Shown here in pieces: positions 1 to 32,196 of a stretch of DNA of 64,000 nt. The notes beneath the pieces are model-generated. The model saw only the letters and a program-made list of their open reading frames with translations, was not told the DNA's origin and ran no database searches. The number at the start of each line of letters is the position of its first letter. Positions within the stretch are counted from its first letter, which is position 1. The stretch comes from Candidatus Uhrbacteria bacterium (GTDB lineage: Bacteria > Patescibacteriota > Patescibacteriia > 2-12-FULL-60-25). The DNA lies in contig RHKK01000006.1 of the NCBI GenBank assembly GCA_008363075.1, positions 1-64,000 of the forward strand. The letters are read 5' to 3'. The translations under genes were made by a program, and so were the position numbers.

Positions 1-210
1 CGCTCGGCGCTCCCCAAGATCGAAATCCACCGCCGCGAGGCCCACGGGGTGCCCCTCCTGGGCAGCGGCGCCATCGATGACGCGACGGTTCGCGCCCTGG
101 TGACCGATGACGACCGCTTGCACCCGGCGGTGCCCGTCGTCAGGCTGGACACGGAAGGATGGCTGGACACGCTCGCCGACCTCGTCGAACGCGGCGTCAT
201 GGGCCGCTGA
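1..210 (+). CDS. C-terminal fragment of an unidentified protein
   Basis: An open frame runs from the first base to a TGA at 208-210 and gives 69 residues. It begins RSALPKIEIH and ends LADLVERGVMGR. The codon bias matches the genes that follow. I do not recognise a family in this short tail. It overlaps the best-supported start of the next gene by about 50 bases, so either the downstream start is later or the genes are translationally coupled. Confidence 0.5.
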   Translation, partial: RSALPKIEIHRREAHGVPLLGSGAIDDATVRALVTDDDRLHPAVPVVRLDTEGWLDTLADLVERGVMGR

Positions 211-1751
211 GCCGCCGGCTCGCCCTCCTCGCCGTCGTCGTGGCGGGAGCGGCCTGTGGCGGCGGGCGGTCGCGCGTCACGGTCCACGCCGCGCCGCCAT
301 CGCGCGGCATGGACTCCGCCGCCGTGCGCGCCATCGATCCGGTCGTCGGGCATCGCAGCTTCCGGAACGCGACGTGGGGGATCCTGGTGGTGGACGCCGC
401 CTCCGGCGACACGGTCTACGCGAGAAACCCGGAGGCACTCCTGGTCCCGGCGTCGAATCAGAAGCTGATCACCGGCGCGGTGGCCCTGCACACCCTCGGG
501 CCCGCCTTCCGCTTCACCACGCTCGTCGCCGCCACGGGTCCCATCCGCCAGGGCACGCTGCAGGGCGACCTCGTCATCCTCGGCACCGGCGACCCGACCT
601 TCAGCGATCGCTTCCACGGCGACGCGCTGCGTCCCCTGCGGGCCATCGCGGACAGCCTGTACCGGCTCGGGATTCGTCGCGTCTCCGGCAGACTGGTGAG
701 CGGACTCGATGCTTTTCCGGACGCGTCCGTGGGACAGGGCTGGGCGTGGGACGACCTGGATCGTTCGTACGCCGCCGGAGTCGACGAACTGCTGCTCAAC
801 GAGGGCGTGACCCGCCTGCGGGTGGTCGGCGGCCCGGCCGATGGCGCGCCGGTGGAAGTGCGAACGGCGCCGGCTCGTACCTTCCCGCCTGTACGCGTTA
901 CCGCGCGGACGGCCGGCGGCGGCCAGCCGGAGGTCTGGGTCGCCCGTGATGACGGGAACGGCAGCACCCTGACCGTGGCCGGGCGGCTTCCACCGCGCGC
1001 GGTGGTGGAGCTGGAGGTCACCAACCGGAACCAGACGGTGGTCTTTCTCGAGGCGCTGCGGGAGGCGCTCACGGAGCGCGGGATTACGGTGGCCGGCGGC
1101 GTGACGCCGCGGCCGCTGGCTGGCGGCGGTGGCCTCGGGGGCGGGCCATCGGCGGAGTCCCGCGCGCGGCCCTCTCCCGGGCCCGGTCGCTCCACGCTGT
1201 TCTCGCTGGTGTCGCCGCCGCTGGCTCAGGTCCTTGCGGTCTTCCAGAAGTCCTCGGTCAACCAGATCGGCGAGGCGCTGCTCAAGACCCTGGGCCGCCT
1301 GCGCACCGGCTCCGGCACGTACGAAAGCGGAATCGACGCGGTGAAGCGCCAGCTGATCACGTGGGGCGCGGCCGCCGACGGATTCGTCGTGCGTGACGGA
1401 AGCGGCCTCTCGCGGCTCAACGTGGTCTCCGCGGAAACGCTGGTCCGCGTGCTCCTGCGGATGCGCCAGGACACGGCGTCCGCGACGTTCCTTGCCGCAC
1501 TTCCCGTCGCCGGGGTGGACGGCACCCTGGGCCGGCGGCTGGGCGGCGGACCGACGCGCGGAAACGTCCGCGCCAAGACCGGCTCGCTCGAACAGGTTCG
1601 CGCACTCTCCGGCTATGTTACCACCGCCGACGGGCGCCAACTGGCCTTTGCGGTGCTCTGCAACAACTGGACGGTGAGCGCCGAGACCGTGGAGACCGCG
1701 ATCGATGAGATTGTGCTGCGACTGGCCCGCCTGCGTCGCCCGGGCCGCTGA
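159..1751 (+). CDS. dacB: D-alanyl-D-alanine carboxypeptidase/endopeptidase, S13 (PBP4) family
   Basis: Penicillin-binding protein 4-type serine peptidase, acting on stem-peptide cross-links of peptidoglycan outside the membrane. All three active-site motifs are present: SNQK at residues 99-102, SVN in SSVNQIGEALLK, and KTG in RAKTGSLEQVRALSG near residue 470. The N terminus is Arg-rich, followed by a hydrophobic stretch (LALLAVVVAGAAC), which suggests a signal peptide or a poor lipobox ending at Cys33. The length of 530 aa is normal for the family. The stop abuts the moeA start with no gap. The ATG at 159 overlaps the upstream fragment; no better ATG is seen. Confidence 0.9.
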   Translation: MAGHARRPRRTRRHGPLSRRLALLAVVVAGAACGGGRSRVTVHAAPPSRGMDSAAVRAIDPVVGHRSFRNATWGILVVDAASGDTVYARNPEALLVPASNQKLITGAVALHTLGPAFRFTTLVAATGPIRQGTLQGDLVILGTGDPTFSDRFHGDALRPLRAIADSLYRLGIRRVSGRLVSGLDAFPDASVGQGWAWDDLDRSYAAGVDELLLNEGVTRLRVVGGPADGAPVEVRTAPARTFPPVRVTARTAGGGQPEVWVARDDGNGSTLTVAGRLPPRAVVELEVTNRNQTVVFLEALREALTERGITVAGGVTPRPLAGGGGLGGGPSAESRARPSPGPGRSTLFSLVSPPLAQVLAVFQKSSVNQIGEALLKTLGRLRTGSGTYESGIDAVKRQLITWGAAADGFVVRDGSGLSRLNVVSAETLVRVLLRMRQDTASATFLAALPVAGVDGTLGRRLGGGPTRGNVRAKTGSLEQVRALSGYVTTADGRQLAFAVLCNNWTVSAETVETAIDEIVLRLARLRRPGR

Positions 1752-3002
1752 ATGCTGAGCGTCCCGGAGGCGGTCGCGCGGATCCTCGCCGGGATCGAGT
1801 CCGGCCCGGTGGAGCGCGTCGGCCTGCTCGACGCCCTGGGCCGCGTGCTCGCGGTGGATGCGGTCGCGCCCTACACGCTGCCGCAGTGGGACAACTCGGC
1901 GATGGACGGCTACGCGGTGCGGGCCGCTGACATCGCCACGGCGTCGCCGCAATCGCCGGTCACGCTGTCCGTGCTCGAGACCGTGGCGGCCGGCGCGTTT
2001 CCCAGCCGTCCGGTCGGCGCCGGCCAGGCGATCCGGATCATGACCGGTGCTCCGCTCCCGGACGGCGCGGACACGGTGGTGCGGGTCGAGGACACCGACG
2101 GCGGCACCGAACGCGTCGAGATCCGCAACGCCCGCGATGCGCGCAAGAACATCCGGCCGCGTGGCGAGGACTTCCGCGAGGGGTCGGTGGTGATTCGGGC
2201 CGGCACGCCACTCGCCGCCGCGCAGCTGGGCGTCCTCGCCAGCCTCGGGTACGCCGAGGTGGCCGTGCACCGGCGTCCGGTGGTCGCGATCGCCGGTTCC
2301 GGCGACGAACTGGTCGACCTGGACCGTTTCGACGAGGTCGTGGCGGGGCGGAAGATCGTCGGGTCGAACCGGTACACGCTGGACGCCCTGGTCCGGCAGG
2401 CCGGCGGGGTGCCGGTGCACCTCGGGAATGCGCCCGATGCGCCCGAGGCGCTGCGGGCGGTCCTCGAGCGGTCCCGCGGGTGCGATCTCCTCATCACCTC
2501 GGCGGGGGCGTCGGTGGGCGAGTTCGACTACACGCGCCAGGTGCTCGAGTCGTTAGGTGCCCGGCTCGACTTCTGGCGCGTGCGCATGCGGCCGGGCGCG
2601 CCGCTCGGGTTCGGGCGCTTGGGGGCCATGCCCTGGATCGGCCTGCCGGGGAACCCCGTGTCGGCCATGGTCACGTTCGAGCTCTTCGCGCGCCCCGTCG
2701 TCCGCCGCCTCCTCGGCCACCGGCGCCTGCACCGGCGGCCCCTCCCGGCGGTGCTCGAGGAACCGGTGGCGATCGGCGCCCGCCTGACGCATTTCCTGCG
2801 CGCGATCACCGGCGTCGCGCCCGACGGGCGCCTGACCGCGCGGCTCACGGGGCCGCAGGGGAGCGGCATCCTCACGTCGATGTCCAGCGCCAACGCGCTG
2901 CTCGTCGTCCCCGAGGATCGCCCGCGCGCCGAGGCCGGCGAGGTGCTCAACGTCCTGCCCCTGTCGGAGGATGCCCAGCTCGCCGACGCCTTCTCGCTGT
3001 GA
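1752..3002 (+). CDS. moeA: Molybdopterin molybdenumtransferase MoeA
   Basis: MoeA inserts molybdate into adenylated molybdopterin in the cytoplasm, the last general step of molybdenum cofactor synthesis. The family signature DNSAMDGYAVRA is at residues 47-58. RIMTGAPLPDGADTVV and the MoaB-like domain with TSAGASVGEFDYT and GLPGNPVSAMV follow in the normal order. The length of 416 aa is typical. The ATG follows the previous stop directly. The stop overlaps the GTG of the methyltransferase gene, so the three genes are probably one operon. No molybdoenzyme is visible in the window to explain the need for the cofactor. Confidence 0.95.
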   Translation: MLSVPEAVARILAGIESGPVERVGLLDALGRVLAVDAVAPYTLPQWDNSAMDGYAVRAADIATASPQSPVTLSVLETVAAGAFPSRPVGAGQAIRIMTGAPLPDGADTVVRVEDTDGGTERVEIRNARDARKNIRPRGEDFREGSVVIRAGTPLAAAQLGVLASLGYAEVAVHRRPVVAIAGSGDELVDLDRFDEVVAGRKIVGSNRYTLDALVRQAGGVPVHLGNAPDAPEALRAVLERSRGCDLLITSAGASVGEFDYTRQVLESLGARLDFWRVRMRPGAPLGFGRLGAMPWIGLPGNPVSAMVTFELFARPVVRRLLGHRRLHRRPLPAVLEEPVAIGARLTHFLRAITGVAPDGRLTARLTGPQGSGILTSMSSANALLVVPEDRPRAEAGEVLNVLPLSEDAQLADAFSL

Positions 3003-3661
3003 GCGCCGACGACGATCGCGACACGCTCGCGCGATTCGACAGCCGGACGACGGCGCTGGAGGTGCAGGGCGAGATCCTCTCGATCCGACATCCGGCGGAC
3101 GCGGAGTCGCTCATCGACGCGGGCGCCTTCGCGCGAGACGAACGCCTGCCGTACTGGGCCGACGTCTGGCCGTCGTCCCTGGCGCTGGCGCGCCGCGTGG
3201 CTGCGCTCGACGGCCGGCACCGGCGGCTGGTGGAGCTGGGATGCGGCGTGGGCCTGGTCGCGGCGGCGGCGCTGCGCGCCGGATTCGACGTGACCGCGAC
3301 CGACTACTACGAGGAAGCGCTGGCCTTTGCGCGGGCGAACGGCCGGGCCAACGCCGGGCGTGCGCCCGAGACCCGGCTGGTCGACTGGCGCGACCCGCCG
3401 GCGGCGCTCGGCCCGTTCGATCTCGTCGTCGCAGCGGACGTGTTGTACGAGCGGCCCCACGGCCCCCTGGTCGCGCGCCTCATCGGGCGGGTTCTGGGCC
3501 CGGCCGGGACCGCGCTCGTGGCCGACCCCGGTCGCGTGGGCTCGTCGCCGTTTCTCGATGCGCTGGCCGAGGCCGGGCTGCGGCGCCGGGGTGCGTCGGT
3601 CGTGACGGTCGCGATGGCGGGCCGCGAGCACGCCATCACGATCCACGAGATCGTGCACTGA
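2999..3661 (+). CDS. Class I SAM-dependent methyltransferase, METTL16/20-like (ETF-beta lysine methyltransferase-like)
   Basis: A 220-aa protein starting at GTG 2999, which overlaps the moeA TGA. The order of motifs is LPYWADVWPSSLALAR, then the SAM-binding loop VELGCGVGLVAAAALRAG, then DVTATDYYEEAL, then FDLVVAADVLYE. This arrangement (PYWA.VWPS.. then ELGCGVG) is that of the Methyltransf_16 group, which contains the protein lysine methyltransferase acting on the electron transfer flavoprotein beta subunit. etfB lies 4 kb away on the other strand. The methyltransferase fold is clear; the ETF substrate is an inference from family and neighbourhood. Confidence 0.8.
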   Translation: MSADDDRDTLARFDSRTTALEVQGEILSIRHPADAESLIDAGAFARDERLPYWADVWPSSLALARRVAALDGRHRRLVELGCGVGLVAAAALRAGFDVTATDYYEEALAFARANGRANAGRAPETRLVDWRDPPAALGPFDLVVAADVLYERPHGPLVARLIGRVLGPAGTALVADPGRVGSSPFLDALAEAGLRRRGASVVTVAMAGREHAITIHEIVH

Positions 3662-3716
3662 TGTGCGAACGCCGGCCCCCGGACGGGAGCCGGCGCCGGC
3701 ATTCGCTGTGGAACGC

Positions 3717-4169
3717 CTACTTCCTGTTGGCGCACCCCTGGGCCTGCGTGTTGATGTCGCGCCCGCCCTGCCGACCCGTCAGCCAGACCTGGGCCATGTG
3801 GGTGTACGTCCCGCCCTTGCTGTCGGAGCAGCTGGCCATGGCCAGGCTGATGGAGATCCGGATCGTGTCCTTGCCCACCATCAGCGACTCGTAGTCGCTG
3901 ATGGCGCCGGTGACGTTAGGCGCCTTGAACTCGAAGGTCAGCGAATCGCGGCCCCGCGGGCGGTAGACGATCCCGGCGGCGGAGATATCGCCGCTCCAGG
4001 ATCCGTCCTTGGCCACGAGCGTGAAGGCCTCCGGGGGCGGTGGAGGCGCCGCGGCGGCCGCGGCGGCGGAATCGGCGTTCGGGGCGGCTTCGCCGCCGCC
4101 GCACGCTGCCAGGACAGAGACGACCGCCAGCGCGGTCAGCACGTTGAAGGAGGCAGGCAGGGTACGCAT
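3717..4169 (-). CDS. Small secreted lipoprotein of unknown function
   Basis: A 150-aa protein beginning MRTLPASFNVLTALAV with a clear lipobox LAAC, then an Ala/Pro-rich linker and a compact domain ending NTQAQGCANRK. The ATG at 4169 was chosen because a GGAG ribosome-binding site (CCTGGAGAACGC) lies just upstream and the signal peptide begins there; a longer frame exists but has no signal. I do not recognise the domain. It stands alone between the methyltransferase and the ETF oxidoreductase genes. Confidence 0.7.
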   Translation of the reverse strand: MRTLPASFNVLTALAVVSVLAACGGGEAAPNADSAAAAAAAPPPPPEAFTLVAKDGSWSGDISAAGIVYRPRGRDSLTFEFKAPNVTGAISDYESLMVGKDTIRISISLAMASCSDSKGGTYTHMAQVWLTGRQGGRDINTQAQGCANRK

Positions 4170-4384
4170 TGCGTTCTCCAGGTCGCTCGACCAAGGGTTG
4201 TCGGGTCCCCATCCTTCGGGGGAGCAGCAAAAAGATGTGATCCGGAAGGCGGCGGGGCAATGCGCCGCGCGGCGTATCGCCGAGTTCACAGGACGCGCGG
4301 GACGCCGCGGGTCCGCCCCGACCCCGGGCGCCGGACGCCGCCGGCGCGCTCCGGCTCGAACCCTCTCCCTCGGGTGCGCGCGAG

Positions 4385-6442
4385 CTATCCGGGGGCGCGC
4401 ACGAGCCGCTCCGCCACCACCTCGGCGATATCGAGCACCGGGACCTCGCTCCCCAGCGTCCGCGCCCCGTCGGACACCATGGTCAGACAGAAGGGGCACG
4501 CGACCGCCAGGCGGTCTGCGCCGGTGGCGAGCAGTTCCTCCGTCCGCTCCACGTTGATGCGTTTTCCCGTTCGTTCCTCCATGAACATTCGCCCGCCGCC
4601 CGCACCGCAGCAGAGCCCGCGATCGCGCGTGCGCTCCGGTTCGGCCAGTCGCACCACCGGAAGCGCGCGACGGATCGTCTCCCGGGGCGCGTCGTACACG
4701 TCGTTGTACCGCCCGAGGTAGCAGCTGTCGTGGAACGCGACCGTCAGACGGCGCCCATCCTCGCTGTCGAGGGGCACCTTCCCCTCCGCCAGCAGTCGCG
4801 CCAGGAACTCCGAGTGGTGGATCACGTCGAACACGCCCCCGAACTGCGGGAACTCCTTCCCCATCTGATGGAAGCAGTGCGGGCAGCTGGTGACCACCGT
4901 CGTGACGCCGTACCCGTTGAGCGTCCCGATCGCCTGTTTCGCCAGCATCTGGTAGAGGTACTCGTTGCCCAGGCGCCGGGCCGGGTCGCCATGACAGCTC
5001 TCCTCCTGGCCAAGAATGGCGAACCGAACGCCCGCGGCCTTGAGGATTCGCGCGAACGCCACGGTCACCTTTTTCGCGCGGTCGTCGAACGAGCCCATGC
5101 AGCCGACCCAGAAGAGCACGTCGGGGCGTTCACCGCGCGCCGCCAGCTCGGCCATCGTCGGAACGTCCATGCCCTCGGCCCACGCCGCGCGGTCGGACGG
5201 CTGGAAGGCCCACGGCGATCCGTTCCGCTCCAGGGACTCGAACGCCGGCATGACCTCCTCGGGGAATCGCGATTCCGTGAGCACCAGGCCGCGGCGCAGT
5301 TCGTTGATGATCTCGAGCTGGTCGATGGAGACCGGGCACTCGTGGACGCAGGCGCGGCACGAGGTGCAGGCCCAGAGCTCCGCCTCGGTGATGAACGAGT
5401 CGGTGAGCCGCCGATCGCCGGCGTGCGGGGATGGCGGGGCCCCGAACAACGGCTCGGCGAATGCGTCGCGGCCGGCGACGATGGCGGGGGCGACTTCGCC
5501 CAGCCGTTCGCGCGTGTTGATCACGATCTTGCGCGGCGAGAGCGGCTTCCCGGTGAGGTGCGCCGGGCAGACCGACGTGCAGCGGCCGCACTCGGTGCAG
5601 CTGAAGCCGTCCAGCAGGTTCTTCCACGTGAGGTGCGTGATGTCGGCCGCGCCGAACTGCTCGGTCTCCGCCCCGAGATCCATCGGCCGCATCGCCCCGA
5701 TGGCTCCGGGTCCGCTGGTGTTGGAGAGGAAGGTGTTCGGCAGCGAGACGATGACGTGCAGGTGCTTCGAGTACGGCAGGTAGTTCAGGAAGCCAAGCAG
5801 GAGCAGGGCGTGCGCCCACCAGTTCACGTCGCGCGCCACCGCGGCGGCGCCGGGCGACACCCACGCGAGCGCGCCCGCGACCGGGCCGGAGACCGGTTGC
5901 AGCCCCATGGGCAGGTGCGGCTCGACGACGCGAGCGAAGGCCGCGGTGAGGATCAGCGTCACCATGAGCCCCGCGATCATCGAGAGGATGAGGACGGCGT
6001 CGCCGGAATGGACGTTGTCGCCCTGCAGCCGCGCCGGCTTCACCACGAGCCGCCGGTACAGGAGGACCGACACCGCCACGAGCACGAAGGCGGCAAAGCC
6101 TTCCTGCGAGAGAACGAAGAGGGCGTGGAGCGGGCCGGGGAGGATCCGCTCGAACGACCACGAGGGGACCACGCCGGCGATGAGGATCTCGATGCTCCCG
6201 GCGGTGAGCACCACGAAACCCCAGAAGACCAGCGCGTGCAGCGGCCCCGCCACCGGGTCGCGGAGGATCTTGCGCTGCGCGATGCCTATCGAGAGGAGGT
6301 TCCAGGCGCGGCGCGGGAGGTCGTTCCAGCGCGGCTCATCCTTGCCGATCCGCAGGAACCGGTAGAGCCGCTGCGCGCTGTACGAGAAGGCGGCGACCGC
6401 CAGCGTGAGGACGACGAGGAAGGCGACGTTGGACGGGCCCAT
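4385..6442 (-). CDS. Membrane FeS/cytochrome b oxidoreductase, probable ETF:(mena)quinone oxidoreductase (EMO type)
   Basis: A 685-aa fusion. About 230 N-terminal residues carry roughly five membrane helices like the NarI/HdrE cytochrome b domain. Two 4Fe-4S motifs follow, CTECGRCTSVCP and CTSCRACVHECP, then two CCG-type domains (CPHCFHQMGKEFP; HDSCYLGRYNDVYD; GLCCGAGGGRMFMEE). Established knowledge: proteins of this build, encoded with etfBA, pass electrons from ETF to menaquinone during beta-oxidation. Here it lies directly downstream of etfB-etfA on the same strand, about 100 bases after etfA, which supports that role. HdrD-like heterodisulfide or lactate oxidoreductases share parts of this architecture, so the substrate is inferred. 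Confidence 0.88.
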   Translation of the reverse strand: MGPSNVAFLVVLTLAVAAFSYSAQRLYRFLRIGKDEPRWNDLPRRAWNLLSIGIAQRKILRDPVAGPLHALVFWGFVVLTAGSIEILIAGVVPSWSFERILPGPLHALFVLSQEGFAAFVLVAVSVLLYRRLVVKPARLQGDNVHSGDAVLILSMIAGLMVTLILTAAFARVVEPHLPMGLQPVSGPVAGALAWVSPGAAAVARDVNWWAHALLLLGFLNYLPYSKHLHVIVSLPNTFLSNTSGPGAIGAMRPMDLGAETEQFGAADITHLTWKNLLDGFSCTECGRCTSVCPAHLTGKPLSPRKIVINTRERLGEVAPAIVAGRDAFAEPLFGAPPSPHAGDRRLTDSFITEAELWACTSCRACVHECPVSIDQLEIINELRRGLVLTESRFPEEVMPAFESLERNGSPWAFQPSDRAAWAEGMDVPTMAELAARGERPDVLFWVGCMGSFDDRAKKVTVAFARILKAAGVRFAILGQEESCHGDPARRLGNEYLYQMLAKQAIGTLNGYGVTTVVTSCPHCFHQMGKEFPQFGGVFDVIHHSEFLARLLAEGKVPLDSEDGRRLTVAFHDSCYLGRYNDVYDAPRETIRRALPVVRLAEPERTRDRGLCCGAGGGRMFMEERTGKRINVERTEELLATGADRLAVACPFCLTMVSDGARTLGSEVPVLDIAEVVAERLVRAPG

Positions 6443-6542
6443 GGCGCTAAGGTAGGCCGGGACATCCTCGAAACACAGAGCCCGCGGAGCCGGGACGCCC
6501 CGTCCCGCCCGCCGCGGGCTCCGGGTGCAACGGGGTCACGAA

Positions 6543-7523
6543 CTAGCCCTTGCTCCGGGCTTCGCGAATCGCCGCCGTGAGCGCCGGCACGACCTCGAAT
6601 ACGTCGCCGACGATGCCATAGTCGGCCACCTTGAAGATCGGCGCGTCCCGGTCCTTGTTGATCGCCACGATCGTCCGCGAGGTGCGCATCCCGGCCAGGT
6701 GCTGGATCGCCCCCGAGATGCCGACCGCCACGTACAGGTCCGGACTGACCTGCCGCCCCGTCTGCCCGATCTGGTCGCTGTGCGGACGCCAGCCCTCGTC
6801 GGTCACGGCGCGCGTGGCGCCCACCGCCGCATTCCCGAATGCGGCCGCCAGTTCCTCGACGAGCCTGAAGTGTTCGGCCGCCTTGAGCCCGCGCCCGCCG
6901 CTCACGATTACCGGCGCCTCCGTGAGGTCGAGCTTCCTGGCGTCGCCGCGGATCGTCTCGGTTACGACCACGCGGGAGGCCGCTGGATCTCCCACCGCGG
7001 CCGCCGATTCCACGCGGCCGGCCCCGGGCGCCGCCGCGGGAGCGACGGCCCCCGGCCGCATCGACACCACGGCCGGCGTGGCCGCGAGGCGCAGCGTCGC
7101 GACGATCTTCCCCGCGTAGACGTAGTGCGTGACCACCACGGCATCGCCCTCGGCGCGCACGGACAGCGCGTCGGACGCGATCGGTACGCCGAGCCGCGCG
7201 GCAACCCGCGGCGCGAGATCCTTCCCCTGCGCCGATGCCGGGAGCAGCACCACGGGGTAGCTCCCCGCCCTCGCCCGCTCCGCGACCAGCGCCGCCAGCG
7301 CCTCGGCATTGTACGGGTCGAGGGCGGCGTGCTCGGTGACGAAGATCGCGTCGGCGCCGTGGGCCGCCAGCGACGGCGCCTGACCGGCGATCCCCGGCGC
7401 TCCCGCGAGCACGGCGTGCACCTCGCCGCCGGCGGCCAGCGAGCGCGCGGCGGAGAGCAGTTCGAGCGCGACCTTGCGCACCTCGCCGGCGCGCGATTCG
7501 GCAACGACCAGAACGTTCGGCAT
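6543..7523 (-). CDS. etfA: Electron transfer flavoprotein alpha subunit
   Basis: A 326-aa FAD-carrying subunit of ETF. The C-terminal FAD domain signature is intact: [15 protein letters not shown], then [22 protein letters not shown], then [16 protein letters not shown] and [13 protein letters not shown]. The N-terminal domain begins [13 protein letters not shown]. Its ATG at 7523-7521 overlaps the etfB stop (TGATG), so the two subunits are translationally coupled. It would accept electrons from the acyl-CoA dehydrogenase encoded at 12.9 kb and deliver them to the membrane oxidoreductase downstream. Confidence 0.96.
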
Positions 7524-8275
7524 CAGAGGACCTTGGCCTCCTGCTGGAGCAACCGGACCAGCTCGGGGACCGCCGCCGCGCCTTCGCCCACGATCCGCCC
7601 CGCCTGGCGCTCCGGAGGGAGCTCCAGCTTCGTGATCGTCAGGCGCGCCGGGCCGAGCTGCGCCGGCCTGACGTCCATCGGCTTCTTTTTGGCGGCCATG
7701 ATGCCCTTGAGGGACGGGTACCGGGGCCGCGCGATCCCTTCGTCGATGGAAGCCGCCGCCGGCAGCGGGAACGAGACCAGCTCCGCCCCTCCCTCGACCT
7801 CGCGCCGGGCCGATCCCCGCCCCGCCGCGAACGACAGCTTCGTGCACGCCTGCACCATCGGGATGCCTAACAACTCGGCGGTCATCAGGCCGACCGCGCC
7901 GCTGGCGCTGTCGGCGGCATGCTTGCCGAACAGGATCAGGTCGAATCCGCCGTCCCGGAGCTCCGCCGCCAGCGCCTGCGCGATCGCGTAGCCGTCGGCG
8001 GGCACCGCGTCGCACCGGAGGTGCACCGCCCGGCTCGCCCCCATCGACAGCGCCTTGCGGAGCGTCTCCTGGACGGCGTCCGGCCCGAGCGAGATGACCA
8101 CCACCTCGCCGGCCCCCAGTCCCTCCATCGTCTGGAGCGCGAACTCGACGGCGTACCCGTCGAAGTCGGACATGTCGAACTTGAGCCCGGTCTCGTCCAC
8201 GGCCGTCCCGGACGGGGCGATCCTGAACTTCACGTCCATCTCCGGGACGCGCTTGATGCAGACGGCGATCTTCAC
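7523..8275 (-). CDS. etfB: Electron transfer flavoprotein beta subunit
   Basis: A 250-aa AMP-binding subunit of ETF. It starts at GTG 8275 as (V/M)KIAVCIKRVPEMDVKF. Family features include FDMSDFDGYAVEFAL, LILFGKHAADSASGAVGLMTAELLG and the recognition-loop region RPRYPSLKGIMAAKKKPMD. The normal length is about 250 aa. No ATG fits; GTG gives the conserved N terminus. The Lys-rich recognition loop (AAKKKP) is the part methylated by ETF-beta methyltransferases in other organisms, which matters because such a methyltransferase-like gene lies at 2,999-3,661. Confidence 0.96.
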   Translation of the reverse strand: MKIAVCIKRVPEMDVKFRIAPSGTAVDETGLKFDMSDFDGYAVEFALQTMEGLGAGEVVVISLGPDAVQETLRKALSMGASRAVHLRCDAVPADGYAIAQALAAELRDGGFDLILFGKHAADSASGAVGLMTAELLGIPMVQACTKLSFAAGRGSARREVEGGAELVSFPLPAAASIDEGIARPRYPSLKGIMAAKKKPMDVRPAQLGPARLTITKLELPPERQAGRIVGEGAAAVPELVRLLQQEAKVL

Positions 8276-8421
8276 GGGTTCGCGGTTGGCGTTGGCGGAC
8301 CGGAAAGGTAATGGCCTGCCCGCGTGGACCGAGAGCGAGCGCCCCCGCCGGCGGCTCCCCCGGCCCGTGATTCCCTGACCCGCCCGCGTGCCGCCGTCGC
8401 GCGCCCCCGCGACCGCAATCC

Positions 8422-8450
8422 TTGATGTTTGAAGTATTCGGACGTACCAT
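8422..8450 (+). promoter_or_regulatory. Sigma70-type promoter of the CoA-ester monooxygenase operon
   Basis: TTGATG (8422-8427), a 17-base spacer and TACCAT (8445-8450) lie in the 200-base gap between divergent etfB and the monooxygenase gene. The predicted start would be about 20 bases before the GTG at 8478. The imperfect inverted pair TTTGAA-gta-TTCGGA in the spacer could be an operator for the MarR regulator encoded downstream; that is inference. Confidence 0.5.
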
Positions 8451-8477
8451 CTGCGCGACACTTCGGGAGCCACGCGC

Positions 8478-10850
8478 GTGCGCGTTCTGGTCGTCGGCGG
8501 GGGACCTGGTGGCCTGTACGCGGCGCTGCTGCTCAAGCGGCGCGACCCCGCCGCCCACGTCACGGTCGTGGACCGCAACCGCCCCGACGACACCTTCGGC
8601 TGGGGCGTCGTCCTCTCCGACCTCACCGTCGCCAATCTGCGCGCCGCCGACCCGGCCAGCGCCGCGCCCATCGACGCGGCGCTCCACCACTGGGACGACA
8701 TCGAAGTCCACTTCCGGGGCCAGATCATCCGGTCGGGAGGGCACGGCTTCAGCGGCATCGGCCGCCACCGGATGCTCGCCATCCTGCAGCAGCGATGCCG
8801 CGAGCTCGGCGTCCTGCTCGCGCACCAGCGCGAGCTGGGCGCCGGCGCGCTGGACGACCTCGTCGCCGCCGGCGCCGTGGACCTCGTCATCGCCGCCGAC
8901 GGCATCAACTCCACGGTCCGCCAGCGATTCGCCGGCGCCTACCAGCCGGACGTCGACGTCCGGCGCTGCCGCTACGTCTGGCTCGGCACGCCGCGAACCT
9001 TCGACGCATTCACCTTCGCGTTCGAGGAAACGCCGGCCGGATGGTTCCAGGCGCACGCGTACCAGTTCGCCCCCGACTTCTCCACGTTCATCGTGGAGAC
9101 CCCGTGGGAGACCTGGGAACGCGCCGGACTCGACCGCCGCACCGCCGCCGAGTCGGTGGACTTCTGCCAGGGGCTCTTCGCCGGGATCCTCCGCGGCGCT
9201 CCGCTGCGCAGCAACGCCTCGCACCTCAGAGGCTCCGCCCAGTGGCTGCGATTCCCCCGCGTGGTCTGCGCCAGCTGGATCCACTGGCTCGAGGCCGGGC
9301 GCCGGCGCGCGCCGGTCGTCCTGCTCGGCGACGCCGCGCACACCGCGCACTTCTCCATCGGCTCCGGCACCAAGCTGGCCATGGAAGATGCCATCGCGCT
9401 CGACCGCCATCTCGCCGCCGGGACCGACCTCGCCGCCGCCCTGGACGCCTACCACGGGGAACGGTCGGTCGAGGTCCTCAAGCTCCAGAACGCGGCGCGC
9501 AATTCGACCGAGTGGTTCGAGCACGTGGATCGGTACGCCCGCCTCTCGCCCGAGCAGTTCGCCTACTCGCTTCTGACCAGATCACAGCGCATCTCGCACG
9601 AGAACCTGCGCGTCCGCGACCGGCGGTACGTGGAATCGCTCGAACGATGGTTCGCCCGCCGCGCCGGCCTCGCGGTCGCCGACGACGCGGCGCCGCCGCC
9701 CACCATCTTCACGCCGTGGCGCGTGCGCGGCCTCACCGTTCCCAACCGGATCGTGGTCTCCCCGATGGCGCAGTACACGGCCGCGACCGACGGGACGCCC
9801 ACCGACTGGCACTTCGTGCACCTCGGCGCCCGGGCGACCGGCGGCGCCGGGCTCGTCATGACGGAGATGACGTGCGTGGCCCCCGACGCGCGGATCACCC
9901 CCTGGTGCACGGGGCTCTGGACCGAAGCGCATCGCGACGCCTGGGCCCGCATCGTGCGCTTCGTGCACGAGCACAGCGACGCCCGGATCGGACTCCAGCT
10001 CGGCCACGCCGGCGGCAAGGGCGCAACGAAGAAGATGTGGGAGGGCGTCGATGAGCCGCTCCCCAGCGGCGGCTGGCCGCTCATCGCGGCCTCGGAGCAA
10101 CAATACCTGCCGGGCATCTCGCAGGTCGCTCGCGCCATGACCGAGGACGACATGGACCGCGTCGTGGACGAGTTCGTGCGCGCGACGCGGCTCGGCATCG
10201 AGGCCGGCTTCGACTGGCTGGAGCTCCATTGCGCCCACGGCTACCTGCTGTCCGGCTTTCTCTCGCCGCTGACCAACCGCCGCCAGGACGGGTACGGCGG
10301 GCCGGTGGCCGCGCGCGCGCGGTTCCCGCTCCGCGTCTTCGCCGCCATGCGCGCCGAGTGGCCGGCGCACCTGCCGATGTCCGTGCGCATCTCGGCCCAC
10401 GACTGGGCGGAAGGCGGGAACACGGCCGACGAGGCCATCGAGATCGCCCGCCTCTTCCGCGCCGCGGGGGCCGACATGATCGACGTGTCGGCGGGCCAGG
10501 TGGTCCACGACGAGAAGCCCGTCTTCGGCCGCATGTGGATGACGCCCTTCGCGGACCGGATTCGCCAGGAGGCCGGCATCGCGACCATCGCCGTCGGCGC
10601 CATCACCGACGCCGACCAGGCCAACGGCATCATCGCGTCGGGCCGCGCCGATCTGGTCGCCATCGGCCGCCCTCACCTGGTGAACCCGGCCTGGACGCTC
10701 TGGGAAGCGGCGCGCTGGGGATACGCGGGCGCGAAATGGCCCGACCAGTACCTCGCCGGGAAGGCCCAACTGGACCGGCTGATCGCCAGGGAGCGCGCCG
10801 CCGGCACGGCGTTCGCGCCCGCCGGGCCGCCGAGGGGAGAACTCACGTGA
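8478..10850 (+). CDS. Bifunctional FAD monooxygenase / old yellow enzyme fusion (salicylyl-CoA 5-hydroxylase or anthraniloyl-CoA monooxygenase type)
   Basis: A 790-aa fusion. Residues 1 to about 400 form a group A FAD hydroxylase: VVGGGPGGLYAALLL near the N terminus and VLLGDAAHTAHFSIGSG for the FAD ribityl region. From about residue 412 it is an OYE/2,4-dienoyl-CoA reductase-like domain (FTPWRVRGLTVPNRIVVSPM, LQLGHAGGKG, HCAHGYLLSGFLSPLTN). This pairing is characteristic of salicylyl-CoA 5-hydroxylase and 2-aminobenzoyl-CoA monooxygenase/reductase, which dearomatise or hydroxylate aromatic CoA esters. The start is GTG 8478 with GGGAG upstream. It leads a five-gene operon. The exact substrate cannot be read from sequence. 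Confidence 0.88.
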   Translation: MRVLVVGGGPGGLYAALLLKRRDPAAHVTVVDRNRPDDTFGWGVVLSDLTVANLRAADPASAAPIDAALHHWDDIEVHFRGQIIRSGGHGFSGIGRHRMLAILQQRCRELGVLLAHQRELGAGALDDLVAAGAVDLVIAADGINSTVRQRFAGAYQPDVDVRRCRYVWLGTPRTFDAFTFAFEETPAGWFQAHAYQFAPDFSTFIVETPWETWERAGLDRRTAAESVDFCQGLFAGILRGAPLRSNASHLRGSAQWLRFPRVVCASWIHWLEAGRRRAPVVLLGDAAHTAHFSIGSGTKLAMEDAIALDRHLAAGTDLAAALDAYHGERSVEVLKLQNAARNSTEWFEHVDRYARLSPEQFAYSLLTRSQRISHENLRVRDRRYVESLERWFARRAGLAVADDAAPPPTIFTPWRVRGLTVPNRIVVSPMAQYTAATDGTPTDWHFVHLGARATGGAGLVMTEMTCVAPDARITPWCTGLWTEAHRDAWARIVRFVHEHSDARIGLQLGHAGGKGATKKMWEGVDEPLPSGGWPLIAASEQQYLPGISQVARAMTEDDMDRVVDEFVRATRLGIEAGFDWLELHCAHGYLLSGFLSPLTNRRQDGYGGPVAARARFPLRVFAAMRAEWPAHLPMSVRISAHDWAEGGNTADEAIEIARLFRAAGADMIDVSAGQVVHDEKPVFGRMWMTPFADRIRQEAGIATIAVGAITDADQANGIIASGRADLVAIGRPHLVNPAWTLWEAARWGYAGAKWPDQYLAGKAQLDRLIARERAAGTAFAPAGPPRGELT

Positions 10851-11611
10851 CCGCACTCGCCGGGCGCCACGCGCTCGTGACCGGCGCCAACCGCGGCATC
10901 GGCGCGGCGATCGCGGCCGCGCTGTCGCGCGAGGGCGCCAGCGTCACGCTGCTGGTCCGCGACCGCGCCGGCGCCCGTGACGTCGCGAGCGCACTGGCGG
11001 GTGCGCATACCGTCGTCGAGGCGAACGTCACCGACCGGACCGCGGTCACTGCCGCCTGCGCGGAGTCCGCGGCACGCCTGGGCCCCGTGGACATCCTCGT
11101 CAACAACGCCGGGTCCACCGAGTCCTCGCCGTTCCTGCGCGCCGAGCCGGAGCTTTTCGAGCGCATGTTCGCCGTCCACGTGCTCGGGGCCGTGCACGCG
11201 ACCCAGGCGGTCCTCCCCGGCATGATCGATCGCGGCGGTGGCCAGGTGATCAACGTCGCCTCCACGGCCGGACTGCGCGGCGAGGCCTACGTCTCGGCGT
11301 ACGTGGCGGCCAAGCACGCGCTGGTGGGCCTCACGCGTTCGCTCGCCATCGAGCTGGCGCGCCACGGGATCCGGGTCGACGCCGTCTGCCCGGGGTACAC
11401 CGACACCGCGCTGGTGCGCGACGCCGTGCGGCGCATCGCGGAACGCACCGGCCGCGACGAGGAAGACGCGTTAGGCGCCATTCTGGCCGGCGCCGGCCAG
11501 ACGCGGCTGGTGACGGCCGAAGAGGTCGCCGCGGCCGTGGTGGCGCTGTGCGGGCTGCCGGCGGACGCACCGTCCGGCCAGGCCGTGGTGATCGACGGGA
11601 GCCGCCCATGA
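10847..11611 (+). CDS. SDR-family NAD(P)-dependent oxidoreductase (3-hydroxyacyl-CoA dehydrogenase type)
   Basis: A 254-aa classical short-chain dehydrogenase. The Rossmann motif TGANRGIG is near residue 14, NNAG appears in VDILVNNAGS, and the active site is S..YVAAKHA with VASTAGLRGEAYVSAYVAAKHA. CPGYTDT follows. The GTG start overlaps the preceding TGA, so it is coupled to the monooxygenase gene. In this operon it would oxidise a hydroxyacyl-CoA intermediate during ring-product degradation; the role is inferred from context. Confidence 0.88.
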   Translation: MTALAGRHALVTGANRGIGAAIAAALSREGASVTLLVRDRAGARDVASALAGAHTVVEANVTDRTAVTAACAESAARLGPVDILVNNAGSTESSPFLRAEPELFERMFAVHVLGAVHATQAVLPGMIDRGGGQVINVASTAGLRGEAYVSAYVAAKHALVGLTRSLAIELARHGIRVDAVCPGYTDTALVRDAVRRIAERTGRDEEDALGAILAGAGQTRLVTAEEVAAAVVALCGLPADAPSGQAVVIDGSRP

Positions 11612-12087
11612 CCGCCCCCCAGCGCGCCCGCCAACCCGACCCGGAGCACGACGCGCTTCGGCTCTGGCTGCGGCTCTTCACCTGTTCGACGATGATCGCC
11701 CAACACGTGGGCAGCGCGCTCAAGCGCGAGTTCGGGTCGTCGCTGGCGCGCTTCGACCTCCTCGCCCAGCTCGACCGCGCCCCGGCCGGACTCCGCATGG
11801 GTGAGCTGTCCGAGCGCACGCTGACCACCGGCGGCAACGTCACGTGGCTCGTCCGCGCCCTCGAGGCAGAGGGGCTGGTGACGCGGCGGGTGGCGGCGGC
11901 GGACCGGCGGGCGGCCGTGGTGCGCCTGACGCCGGCCGGGCGCCGCCACTTTGCCGTCATGGCGCGCGCCCACGAACGCTGGATCCGGTCGATCTTCTCG
12001 TCCCTCGCGCCCGCGGACCGGCGCGACCTCCACGCCCTGCTGGGCACCGTGAAGCAGGGATTCCGCCCCTCGAGGACTCCTGAATGA
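11608..12087 (+). CDS. MarR-family transcriptional regulator
   Basis: A 159-aa winged-helix regulator. The DNA-binding part reads [34 protein letters not shown], followed by the wing [18 protein letters not shown], the MarR signature. The ATG at 11608 overlaps the SDR stop; an earlier in-frame ATG lies inside the SDR gene. MarR proteins in aromatic CoA-ester operons usually repress until a CoA thioester binds. The likely target is its own operon promoter at 8,422-8,450. Confidence 0.9.
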
Positions 12088-12932
12088 CGGCTCCAGATCC
12101 CATGGCCGCGATGCGGCGCGAAATGGCCGGCCACAGCGCAGAACGCTTCCGCTGGACCACCGAGCACGAGGGACGGGTGGGCATCGTGACCCTGAACCGG
12201 CCGGCCCGCAAGAACGCGCTGACGTTCGCGGTGTACGCCGAGCTCCGCGACCTGTTTCGGGCGCTCGCGCTGGCGTCCGACGTCCGCGCCGTCGTGCTCC
12301 GCGGGGAGGGCGACGACTTCTGCTCCGGCGGCGACGTGCACGAGATCATCGGACCGCTCACGCGCATGGCCGTTCCCGAACTGCTGTCGTTCACGCGGAT
12401 GACGGGCGACCTGGTCAGGGCGATGCGGGCCTGCCCGCAGCCGATCGTGGCCGCCGTGGACGGCGCCTGTGCCGGCGCCGGCGCCATCCTCGCCATGGCC
12501 TCCGACCTCCGGCTGGCCACGCCGGACGCCCGGACCGCGTTCCTGTTCACGCGGGTGGGCCTGGCGGGGTGCGACATGGGCGCCTGTGCCATCCTCCCGC
12601 GCCTGATCGGCCAGGGACGCGCCGCCGAACTGCTGTTCACCGGTCGCGTCATGAGCGCCGAGGAGGGCGAGCGGTGGGGTTTCTACAACGCCGTCGTGGA
12701 CCGTGGCGCGCTGCGGGCCGAGGCCGTCCGTCGCGCCGCCGAGCTGGCGTCGGGTCCCTCGTTCGCCCATGCGATGACCAAGGCGATGCTGCAGCAGGAA
12801 TGGAGTGTGTCGGTGGAGCAGGCGCTGGAGATGGAGGCCCAGGCGCAGGCGCTCTGCATGCAGACGGCGGACTTCGCGGCGGCGTTCGAGGCGTTCGCGG
12901 CGAGGAAACCGGTGGCCTTCGAGGGCCGCTGA
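12084..12932 (+). CDS. Enoyl-CoA hydratase/isomerase family protein
   Basis: A 282-aa crotonase-fold protein. The CoA-binding and oxyanion-hole segments are [17 protein letters not shown] and [47 protein letters not shown] follows. It overlaps the MarR gene by 4 bases (ATGA). In the operon it would hydrate or hydrolyse the ring-derived enoyl-CoA. The catalytic acids of true hydratases are partly replaced (GCDMGAC region), so an isomerase or hydrolase activity is possible. Confidence 0.9.
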
Positions 12933-12934
12933 GC

Positions 12935-13665
12935 GTGCCCGCTGCATCCCTGGACTGGCCGTTCTTCGACGCGGCGCATCGGGCGCTCGCTGCGTCGGTG
13001 ACCACGTGGCTGGCGTCGGCGCCGGCGATCCCGGCCGGCGGGGGCGGCGCCACGGCGGCCGACGAGCCCTGCCGCGAATGGGTCCGTCGCCTGGGGAGCG
13101 CCGGCTTCCTGCGCTACTGCGTGCCGGCGGCCTGGGGGGGCGCGCTGGCCGGGGTCGAGTCCCGGTCGCTCTGTGTGCTCCGCGAGGCGCTGGCCGGCCA
13201 TGACGCGCTGGCCGACTTCGCGTTCGCCATGCAGGGACTGGGCAGCGGGCCGATCACGCTAGGCGGATCGGACGCCCTGCGGGCGGACTGGCTGCCGCGC
13301 GTGGCGCGGGGGGAGGCGATCGCCGCGTTCGCGCTCTCCGAGCCGGAGGCCGGATCGGACGCCGCCGCCCTCCGGACCACGGCCACCCGGCGGCCTGGCG
13401 GCTGGCGGCTCGACGGCACGAAGACGTGGATCTCCAACGGCGGGATCGCCGACTTCTACTGCGTGTTCGCGCGCACCGATCCGGCCGCGGCGCCGTCGAA
13501 GGGCATCGGCGCGTTCGTGGTCCCCGCCGCGACGCCGGGGCTCCGGGTCGCCGAGCGCCTTGCCGTGATGGCGCCGCATCCGCTGGCCACGCTGGCCCTC
13601 GACGGGTGCCTGGTGCCTGACGAGTTCCGGCTCGGCGATCCCGGGGACGCCTCGCGGGATCCGGT
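12935..13665 (+). CDS. Acyl-CoA dehydrogenase, C-terminally truncated at a sequence junction
   Basis: Starts at GTG 12935, two bases after the hydratase stop. The N-terminal and middle domains are normal: [17 protein letters not shown], then [17 protein letters not shown], then [22 protein letters not shown] and [19 protein letters not shown]. After this, at about residue 240, the C-terminal helical domain with the catalytic glutamate is missing. The frame runs on through unrelated, lower-GC sequence. The exact break cannot be fixed to one base. The enzyme would feed electrons to the ETF encoded upstream. The loss is better explained by an artificial join than by mutation. Confidence 0.85.
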
Positions 13666-13700
13666 TCGCCTCAGGCACGGAACTGCGCTTCTCGGGAGGG
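13650..13700. other. Composition and gene-content junction (probable chimeric join)
   Basis: Within this stretch an acyl-CoA dehydrogenase frame stops making sense and the base composition changes from about 70 percent GC to clearly lower. The sequence just after (GGTGGTTCAAAAAAGG) leads into a terminator belonging to a convergent gene. No transposase, integrase, tRNA or target duplication is seen at the break. Confidence 0.75.
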
Positions 13701-13720
13701 TGGTTCAAAAAAGGATTTTT

Positions 13721-13756
13721 AAGACGCCCGACGGGAGTGAACCCGAGGGGCGTCTT
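13721..13756 (-). terminator. Terminator of the 393-aa gene
   Basis: Arms AAGACGCCC and GGGCGTCTT enclose a nested CGGG...CCCG pair, giving a long hairpin about 70 bases after the stop at 13823. On the minus strand a T-rich tract (TCCTTTTTT) follows at 13,707-13,715. Confidence 0.65.
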
Positions 13757-13822
13757 TCCATTCTAAGTGGCTCGTTCCGGCACGGAATGGAATGCGTGCC
13801 GGGGAGCATGGGAAGGAGCGTG

Positions 13823-15004
13823 TCAGCTCGCGGGCGGGACCGGCGTGTTGTCGCCGTTCTTGCCCTCGAGCTTGGCGTTGAGCTGGTCGCCGAGGCGACT
13901 GCCCGGCGCGGGGCGCCAGGCCTGCGCGTGCGCGTCGATGCGATCGTCCGCGACGCGGTCCCGCATGGCCTTGTCGAGGCGCTTCTGCTCGCGCTTGGCG
14001 CGCTCGCGGAACACCTTGACGACCTCGGGATCCTCCGGATCGTACGCCGGATGATGCTTGTTCACGAACACCTTGGCCGTGAACTCGCCGGTCTCGGCGC
14101 TGAAGCCGACGTGGGTGAAGAAGCGGGGAACGCCATCCTGCGAGGGCGGGCTCATCACGTTCACGGTAGCGCTGCCGTCCGGGTTGGCCCAGATGTGGCA
14201 GTGCTTCCAGAACGAGCGCTTCAGCACCTTCTCTTCGAAGGTCCCCGCGAGCTTCAGGCCGATCCCCTCGTCCGAGAAGAGCAGAATGGCGCTCGCGGTG
14301 TACTTCCAGACCTGCACGGAGCCGTACGGCTTCGATGCGGTCGGATGCGTCTTCTTGAGCTTGCCGACCTTGATGCTGCGCAAGTAGGCGAGCTGGAGCG
14401 CGTCCGCTTCGTTCAGAAGCGGCTCGAGCTTCTCTTGATGGTTGTCCTTGTTGAGGATTCCCTCGACCGAGAGCTCTCCGAGGAGCGCGAGCTTCACCTG
14501 CCTTTCGAAGAGCTGATCGATCTTCTTCTCCGCCTTGCGCTCGTCCCACTTGGTGTAGCGCGCGGGCTTGCGCAGCCGCTCGACCTCGATGAGGCAGAAC
14601 CCGACCGCGACGAGCGCGGTGATGATGGTGGGCATCACGGCGTTGTTGGCCCCCTCGGAGTCGAAGAGCTGTCCGCCGGAGTCGTTGATGCCTTCGCGCA
14701 CCTGCTTGAGGCCGGCGCGCTTGAGCTGCTTCGCCCGGGTCTCCTCCAGGCGCTCGGAGACCTCGGTGGACATGAACTTCTTGCTCCGAACGACGCCGTC
14801 GTCCTCGGGCTTCTCACCCGGCTTGCGCTTCGCCTCGAGCTCGTCGAGCATCTCGGCCTCGCGCTCGAGGACCTTGTCCTCCTCGAGGAAGTCCTTGGGA
14901 TCCTGCCCCCACTGCTTGAGGAAGCCGTCGGTCTCGATGCGGTCCTCCGAGTGGTAGGTGAACCGGATCATGTCGTACTTCGGTCGGATGTTCTTGGCGG
15001 CCAT
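13823..15004 (-). CDS. Unknown 393-aa protein with one membrane segment
   Basis: The start at 15004 is set by a near-perfect ribosome-binding site (GAAGGAGGTGGCCC). The protein begins [20 protein letters not shown]. Residues 1-120 are highly charged and helical ([20 protein letters not shown]), residues about 123-139 are hydrophobic ([17 protein letters not shown]), and the rest is mixed alpha/beta with Trp-rich parts ([30 protein letters not shown]). It ends in a flexible Asp/Arg/Lys tail. I do not recognise a family. The strong promoter, long leader and hairpin terminator suggest a highly expressed single gene. It lies just after the chimera junction. Confidence 0.7.
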
Positions 15005-15128
15005 GGGCCACCTCCTTCTCAAATTGTGATGGAGCCGGCGAACCGACTCCGACGTCTGTTTCAAGCCGCCGTGCAGCGACTCGATTCGGCCTTGTAACCG
15101 CCAAAGCGGTATCCGGCACGAACATCGT

Positions 15129-15157
15129 AATATAGCACAAAAATCGGATTTTGTCAA
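15129..15157 (-). promoter_or_regulatory. Consensus sigma70 promoter of the 393-aa gene
   Basis: On the minus strand, TTGACA (15157-15152), exactly 17 bases, then TATATT (15134-15129). The predicted leader is about 115 bases and includes the small hairpin ACCGC-tttg-GCGGT. This is the closest match to consensus in the window. Confidence 0.85.
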
Positions 15158-15189: not shown

Positions 15190-15217
15190 GTAGGGGCGTA
15201 TTGCAATACGCTCCTAC
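15190..15217. repeat. 28-base palindrome, GTAG...CTAC family, copy 1
   Basis: Left arm GTAGGGGCGTATTG, right arm CAATACGCTCCTAC, with one mismatch. It ends the glycosyltransferase gene, whose stop codon TAG (15216-15214) is the TAG of the palindrome itself. It probably acts as a terminator hairpin. Three other exact 28-base members and one variant occur in the window. Confidence 0.85.
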
Positions 15218-16245
15218 CGGATGGCGATTGCCTTCAATGTTTCCACGATGATTCGTCCCGCCTCATTCCATCCGTCGAGTACGGTGTTGGTTCGATATTT
15301 TTCCGGGTTGTCCAAGATTTGACACATGGCTTCGGTCCAATGATGCGGTTTGGCGGGTGAGGCGAACGTCGTTCCTTCGGGCGCGATTTCCGGAAGCGAG
15401 CTTGCGGTCGAGGCGATGCACGGCGTGCCGAATCGCGCGGCTTCGTGCAGCGGCATGCCAAACCCTTCGTACCAAGAGGGATAACAAAATATTGCCGCGT
15501 CGCGCATGAGGGCGAAGAGTTCGATGTCGGAAGGGCGGGGCGCGTTCGGCGAGCCTATCATCACAAGCTCGACGTCTTTGTATGTGGGATCCTTGATCAG
15601 CTCGGCATGCGCGGCGATGACACATGAAGCATTTTTTCTCGTATTCGATCCGCCCAGACAGAGAATATATCTTGAAACTTGAAACTTGAAACTTGAATCG
15701 AATGAAAGCTCGGCGCGATCCAATCCCATCGGAATCACGGTGATACGTGTTGGATCGATCCCGAGCAGACGCACGAGATCGTCTTTTGTGCGTTGCGAGA
15801 CGGCAAAGAGATGCGCGGCGTTCTTGATCAGCGATCTTGGTTTTACGAGCGCGTGCCAGATGCGCGATTTGCGATCGAACCAGCGCGGCTCGATGAGAAA
15901 AGAGAGATCATGCACGAGCAACGCATACGGGATACTCGGTCGGCCGACAAATTCGAGATTTGGCAGAAAGAGAACGTCCTGTTTTTGATCGTGAAACAAG
16001 CGTTCGTAAGACGTAAGTCCGGTAAATGTGAGCAAGGCGACGAGTTTGTTGGGAATTTTTCTTGAAGCATGAAGCTTGAAGCTTGAAACAAAAGCGGGTG
16101 ATCCGCGTTGAAGCCCCGTCGTTTCGATGATGAGCTCGTCTTCGCCGAGGACCGATTTGATTGCGCTTGCGAGGCTTGCGGTAAGCCTCGGGACGCCGCC
16201 CATCCAGGGCCGAAGCATGGGACGTCCGTCCATCAGAATGCGCAT
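15214..16245 (-). CDS. GT4-family glycosyltransferase
   Basis: A 343-aa GT-B glycosyltransferase. The C-terminal nucleotide-sugar domain is typical: YILCLGGSNTRKN, then AAIFCYPSWYEGFGMPLHEAARFGTPCIAS and SLPEIAPEGTTF. The start at 16245 (MRILMDGRPMLRPWMGGVPR) was chosen because GAGG lies upstream; the longer frame only reads through a repeat. Two arrays of the 7-base unit CTTGAAR lie inside the gene and encode SSFKFQVS and SSFKLHAS. Probably surface polysaccharide synthesis with the next two genes. Confidence 0.85.
   Translation of the reverse strand: MRILMDGRPMLRPWMGGVPRLTASLASAIKSVLGEDELIIETTGLQRGSPAFVSSFKLHASRKIPNKLVALLTFTGLTSYERLFHDQKQDVLFLPNLEFVGRPSIPYALLVHDLSFLIEPRWFDRKSRIWHALVKPRSLIKNAAHLFAVSQRTKDDLVRLLGIDPTRITVIPMGLDRAELSFDSSFKFQVSRYILCLGGSNTRKNASCVIAAHAELIKDPTYKDVELVMIGSPNAPRPSDIELFALMRDAAIFCYPSWYEGFGMPLHEAARFGTPCIASTASSLPEIAPEGTTFASPAKPHHWTEAMCQILDNPEKYRTNTVLDGWNEAGRIIVETLKAIAIR
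15671..15698 (-). repeat. Heptamer array (4 units, CTTGAAA type) inside a coding region
   Basis: Three CTTGAAA units and one CTTGAAT in tandem. In the glycosyltransferase frame this reads SSFKFQVS, between the two Rossmann domains just before RYILCLGG, a place where family members have a variable linker. Confidence 0.9.
16061..16088 (-). repeat. Heptamer array (4 units, CTTGAAG type) inside the same gene
   Basis: Units CTTGAAG, CATGAAG, CTTGAAG, CTTGAAA. In frame it encodes SSFKLHAS in the N-terminal domain of the glycosyltransferase. Same word family as the array at 15,671 and the one at 49,717. Confidence 0.9.
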
Positions 16246-16266
16246 AGCAACCTCGCTTTTTCCATT

Positions 16267-16336
16267 ATCCCGACCGAGGAGCGAAGCGACGAGCGGAGGG
16301 ATCGCTTCGAAGGGATCCCTCGGCTTCGCTCGGGAT
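16267..16336. repeat. Imperfect inverted repeat upstream of the glycosyltransferase gene
   Basis: The left arm contains ATCCCGACCGAGGAGCGAAG and the right arm CTCGGCTTCGCTCGGGAT. It reads as SSRAKPRD-like peptide when translated on the minus strand, a form seen in widespread intergenic palindromes. It fills most of the 110-base gap between two glycosyltransferase genes. Confidence 0.7.
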
Positions 16337-16354
16337 GATGCCGGCATAAATAAA

Positions 16355-21240: not shown

Positions 21241-21315
21241 GCCCCTGTCGTCTAATGGATAAGACCGCGGACTTCTAAGCCGCTTATGGAGGTTCGATTC
21301 CTTCCGGGGGCACCA
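21241..21315 (+). tRNA. tRNA-Arg (anticodon UCU)
   Basis: Acceptor arms GCCCCTG and CGGGGGC, anticodon stem GCGGA with loop CTTCTAA, T loop TTCGATT, discriminator A and an encoded CCA. All four arms fold. Confidence 0.95.
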
Positions 21316-31826: not shown

Positions 31827-31848
31827 CCGCAGGAGTGTAGCATTTAGG

Positions 31849-31911
31849 CAGCTCGTAGCTAGCCCGGCATGCACCAAGCCCGCCTTTGGCGGATAGCTAG
31901 TAGCTGATAGG
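31849..31911. repeat. Mixed heptamer and GC-rich hairpin repeat
   Basis: GCTCGTA and GCTAGCC at the left; GATAGCT, AGTAGCT, GATAGGA from 31892 at the right; AGCCCGCC-TTT-GGCGGAT between. The arms are partly complementary. It fills the gap between divergent genes. Confidence 0.6.
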
Positions 31912-31913
31912 AT
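31905..31913 (+). promoter_or_regulatory. Extended -10 promoter, leaderless
   Basis: TGA-TAGGAT, six bases (GACTGC), ATG 31920. It overlaps the right arm of the repeat. Confidence 0.6.
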
Positions 31914-31919
31914 GACTGC

Positions 31920-32159
31920 ATGAGAAAAACGAGCTTTATTCCGAATCTGCGGGCGATCTGGCTGTTCGTGAAGGATCCGAGTACGGATTGGAAGCCGAAG
32001 GCGCTGGTCGTGGCCGCCGTGTTGTATCTCGTCTGGCCGATTGATCTGCTGCCCGATTTCGCGCCGATAGTCGGTTGGCTTGATGATCTCGGGTTCATCG
32101 GGGCGGCGGCATGGTATCTCGCACATGCGACGAACAGGTATTTGGAACGAAAAAAATAA
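31920..32159 (+). CDS. DUF1232 (YkvA-like) small membrane protein
   Basis: 79 aa. The DUF1232 signature is clear: WLFVKDPSTDWKPKALVVAA, then YLVWPIDLLPDFAPIVGWLDD and a hydrophobic stretch. Function is unknown in the family. The stop lies inside an extended palindrome shared with the convergent C39-like gene. Confidence 0.88.
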   Translation: MRKTSFIPNLRAIWLFVKDPSTDWKPKALVVAAVLYLVWPIDLLPDFAPIVGWLDDLGFIGAAAWYLAHATNRYLERKK

Positions 32160-32196
32160 CGTGTGGGGCACGAGATATCGTGCCCCGTACGTTATT
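32155..32196. repeat. Extended palindrome, variant of the GTAG...CTAC family
   Basis: Outer arms AATAACGT and ACGTTATT, inner arms GGGGCACGA and ATCGTGCCCC. It contains the stop codons of both convergent genes (TAA at 32157-32159 plus, TAA at 32194-32192 minus). A bidirectional terminator is likely. Confidence 0.8.

Follow-up and report, generated by a model that had tools for sequence, protein, structure and literature searches.

Why does a GC-rich catabolic operon break off in the middle of an acyl-CoA dehydrogenase gene, and does the break record a gene transfer or the artificial joining of DNA from two genomes? The question arises in a window of 64,000 nucleotides, the whole stretch analysed here, which corresponds to bases 1–64,000 of the 68,423-base contig C8 (window base 1 is C8 base 1), and for which the preliminary description had considered both an assembly error and an unusual transfer. 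The bin holding C8 is a genome of 1.10 Mb in 25 contigs (hereafter the small genome), scored as 99.89% complete and 0.05% contaminated, with relatives of 0.7–1.6 Mb. No ribosomal protein L30 was found over the cut-off in the small genome, whereas 13 of 14 controls exceeded it. Loss of L30 and small size are typical of Patescibacteria, and the two features together therefore point to a Patescibacteria-like organism.

The dehydrogenase gene is cut off at position 13,649

The truncated dehydrogenase gene (12,935–13,649, plus strand, delimited by homologue alignment and Pfam) starts with a GTG codon at 12,935, and its product shares 75.6% amino acid identity with the counterpart in the Gemmatimonadota locus L010, with many further homologues matching. 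Intact homologues are about 380–403 amino acids long. The window's protein contains the N-terminal and middle domains (PF02771 and PF02770) and lacks PF00441, confirming the earlier remark that the whole C-terminal domain is missing. We rejected the idea that the missing piece is located elsewhere, since no match to PF00441 was present in the whole small genome. All 33 intact homologues listed share the motif (L/I)G..G.GF, followed two residues on by AMRTLD or AMATLD. At the same site the window reads RLGDPGD, with the last codon at 13,649, and then departs from the pattern, having GDAS where the intact homologues have G.GF. Because the motif is left after RLGDPGD, homology ends at 13,649; similarity to the intact Gemmatimonadota dehydrogenases stops there, and the operon does end in mid-gene, as first described. 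The reading frame happens to stay open past the break, through GC-rich DNA, to 15,097, by chance and without meaning.

The two sides of the break belong to different lineages

Blastn, Pfam and inspection of the open reading frames identified positions 1–13,649 (no strand assigned) as a foreign segment derived from Gemmatimonadota. It encodes an S13 carboxypeptidase, MoeA, a methyltransferase-like ORF, an Fe-S (CCG domain) oxidoreductase, Etf-like genes, a FAD monooxygenase/old-yellow-enzyme fusion, an SDR-like ORF, a MarR regulator, an enoyl-CoA hydratase and the start of the acyl-CoA dehydrogenase (the methyltransferase, Etf and SDR were named by eye from the ORFs). The closest relatives of the 790-amino-acid fusion protein (8,478–10,850) are from Gemmatimonadota, with at most 79% amino acid identity. 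L010 is the nearest locus and aligns with 8,405–13,635 in one colinear blastn block of 77% identity. This organization resembles Gemmatimonadota catabolic operons such as that of L010, in which the fusion, SDR, MarR, enoyl-CoA hydratase and acyl-CoA dehydrogenase genes follow in the same order over 5.2 kb (77% nucleotide identity), but the window's operon is cut off within the dehydrogenase gene. Of 15 Gemmatimonadota genomes, 14 contained matches to pieces of positions 1–8,400, and several of them carried colinear pieces on one contig.

The first gene to the right of the join (13,823–15,157, minus strand, GC about 0.64) was characterized by a search for relatives and by its tetranucleotide profile; it encodes a 444-amino-acid protein with no Pfam match, whose only relatives are weak ones (30–33% identity) from two members of the family, among 56 related small genomes. 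A glycosyltransferase gene of the small-genome lineage lies at 15,214–16,347 on the minus strand (orthologue search and Pfam), with orthologues of 39–58% identity in 22 of the 23 other genomes of the same family. Separate taxonomic searches of the two sides, as had been proposed, led to Gemmatimonadota on the left and to the family of the small genome on the right. That C8 is instead wholly Gemmatimonadota, with its right-hand part acquired by a Gemmatimonadota genome, is barely conceivable, as nothing beyond contiguity speaks for it, while the right side has orthologues throughout the family of small genomes, contains five tRNA genes and carries the small genome's own repeat (see below).

Composition had been said to change within about 50 bases. 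The change is not that clean: GC content drops to 0.54 at 13,701–13,800, climbs back to 0.69–0.77, stays at about 0.64 until 15.1 kb and is mostly 0.5–0.6 only thereafter. The right side is itself GC-rich over its first 1.5 kb, which explains why no sharp change is seen at the join, and GC alone was discarded as misleading for locating the join, the region 13.8–15.1 kb being GC-rich yet grouping with the right side. In the suggested comparison of tetranucleotide profiles, positions 1–13.6 kb correlated at 0.50–0.64 with Gemmatimonadota loci and mostly at 0.07–0.38, once at 0.50, with the right side, and the gene of the 444-amino-acid protein correlated at 0.51 with the right side and at 0.24–0.27 with the left. 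Separately, we noticed an island of GC 0.70 in the right half (30,009–32,171). It holds a gene resembling E1-E2 ATPases, recognized by one Pfam domain hit, and has an atypical tetranucleotide profile (correlation of 0.08–0.39 with everything else); the gene may be a genuine acquisition or may evolve fast.

The join lies in a dispersed repeat

Base-by-base comparison placed the join in an overlap of about 20 bases, GCTCGGCGATCCCGGGGACG (13,630–13,649, no strand assigned), which encodes Leu-Gly-Asp-Pro-Gly-Asp of the dehydrogenase and also belongs to an intergenic repeat that is dispersed in the small genome. The window's copy of this repeat (13,627–13,705, minus strand, with its left edge at 13,627 or 13,630) is 95% identical to C21:2536–2614 and 74% identical to C2:8290–8361, the latter figure referring, in one statement of the comparison, to the C21 copy against the C2 copy. 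The C21 copy is intergenic, between the genes of enolase and phosphoglycerate kinase (the kinase named by eye), and the C2 copy is intergenic-looking. Over 13,630–13,702 the window differs from the C21 copy only at 13,640 and 13,673, GCTCGGCGATCCCGGGGACG thus matching that copy save for base 13,640; for both parents, the exact identity of the overlap is deduced from homologues and from this other repeat copy, with its difference at 13,640, rather than from the true parent sequences. The preliminary description had found the right region with its interval 13,640–13,720, while the exact join sits at the left edge of that interval. It was likewise correct in that no mobile element was identified near the join, but had overlooked the repeat exactly at that position.

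The nearest recombinase-like ORF (by eye) is at 19,877 and the nearest tRNA gene at 21,241, no tRNA gene lying within 7 kb of the join. A terminator-like inverted repeat, AAGACGCCC...GGGCGTCTT, was read directly from the sequence at 13,721–13,756 (no strand assigned). Long exact repeats between the two halves of the window were also considered and rejected, as the matches were only short and chance-like. In addition, long, GC-rich repeats between genes form a family in the small genome (L002, 1320–1620; L005, 1420–1760) and have phrases such as GCCTGGATGCCTGAACTTGCTCGCTCAATATCTTC in common, on either strand and with small differences.

The repeat at the junction would also suit a real, recent horizontal transfer, in which a Gemmatimonadota segment of at least 13.6 kb entered a Patescibacteria-like chromosome through recombination at the dispersed repeat; the 20-base common sequence could in principle support such recombination. 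Such a transfer is nevertheless very improbable, because the segment shows the gene order and composition usual for Gemmatimonadota, interrupts a gene and bears no mobile-element or integration marks that we could find, and because the foreign part reaches the contig start, so that no second boundary in recipient DNA is seen. The N-terminal domain of acyl-CoA dehydrogenases was found in 0 of 56 relatives of the small genome, which gives no sign of an older transfer and is compatible with a recent one.

Similar fusions are found at other contig ends

Contig ends of the assembly were sampled as stretches, and the counts of fusions are lower bounds. At least six further ends (the starts of C1, C3, C17, C18 and C21 and the end of C12) carry similar mid-gene fusions of unrelated genes, so that the small genome appears to have at least seven such joins in all. 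At the start of C21 (L094, C21:1–3000), an OLD-like ATPase/TOPRIM nuclease gene is fused in frame to enolase near 1,225–1,255. The enolase is without its first 40 N-terminal profile positions, and the OLD-like and enolase domain matches overlap by 11 residues, consistent with a short common sequence at that join. The missing N-terminal part was not located elsewhere, as no other enolase N-domain was found in the small genome. At the start of C18 (L112, C18:1–4000) a FabD-like acyltransferase is fused to a methylguanine-DNA methyltransferase near 500–530. The start of C1 (L096, C1:1–4000) passes near 815–830 from a SpoIIE-type phosphatase into a sigma factor gene in antisense orientation that breaks off after region 1.1, and that of C17 (L111, C17:1–4000) passes near 300–350 from a GC-rich stretch into sigma regions 2–4. 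In the simplest reading, one rpoD gene (primary sigma factor) was apparently broken between C1 and C17 and its halves joined to different foreign DNA. Near 550–570 at the start of C3 (L098, C3:1–4000), a PKS-type acyltransferase piece adjoins the last residues of an HIT protein, whose match is slightly under the Pfam cut-off. The end of C12 (L135, C12:47570–50569) has a pyrophosphatase piece and a cyclase piece in one frame within 1610–2464; the match to pyrophosphatase falls short of the cut-off, and either piece could be the host's. The last approximately 230 bases of C4 (L129) hold a GC-rich (0.79, 0.65) glycosyltransferase C-terminus beside a lower-GC gene and are possibly another chimeric end.

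These fusions to other genes also count against transfer at C8, since independent transfers would hardly all have stopped mid-gene at contig ends. A physical chimera, formed by template switching or ligation at a short common sequence during amplification or library making, would likewise give short-homology mid-gene joins at several contig ends. We regard it as unlikely, because a foreign arm of 13.6 kb stopping exactly in the other genome's repeat fits a graph misjoin better and a rare chimeric molecule would seldom dominate an assembly. Most likely, we infer, it was the assembler rather than the library that made the join, by a short-overlap misjoin at the repeat. The left parent would be a Gemmatimonadota contig running into the acyl-CoA dehydrogenase gene and the right parent a Patescibacteria-like contig ending in the dispersed repeat, and a short-read assembler using short overlaps most likely joined them because gene and repeat have about 20 bases in common (GCTCGGCGATCCCGGGGACG), as it probably did at other contig ends of the small genome.

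Discussion

C8 is in all probability an artificial chimera of two bacterial genomes and not the product of gene transfer. The proof is circumstantial but strong: two sources meet at a defined break position, in a repeat with a near-identical 20-base overlap, and such joins recur at other contig ends. The different lineages of the two sides, the short sequence common to gene and repeat, and the mid-gene fusions elsewhere strongly support the assembly-error branch of the preliminary description, and assembler misjoin and laboratory chimera taken together account for the join almost certainly. As a phenomenon the join is ordinary. Inter-genome chimeric contigs in metagenome-assembled genomes also combine two lineages per contig and a sharp break with a stated completeness that is high and a stated contamination that is low (GUNC, PMC8201837); C8 does not differ from them in kind, and here the join is resolved to about 20 bases in a repeat, with several contig ends of the small genome affected.

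The chimera matters only as quality control, and scores of 99.89% completeness and 0.05% contamination failed to reveal it. C8 is to be split at 13,630–13,650, and the adjacency of its two halves allows no functional inference. Our literature search on beta-oxidation in Patescibacteria found nothing useful. The genes at 1–13,650 should not be credited to the organism of the small genome: with MoeA, the Etf-like genes, an aromatic-type oxygenase and acyl-CoA metabolism, they would lead to an aerobic catabolic pathway being wrongly assigned to a bacterium with a reduced genome.
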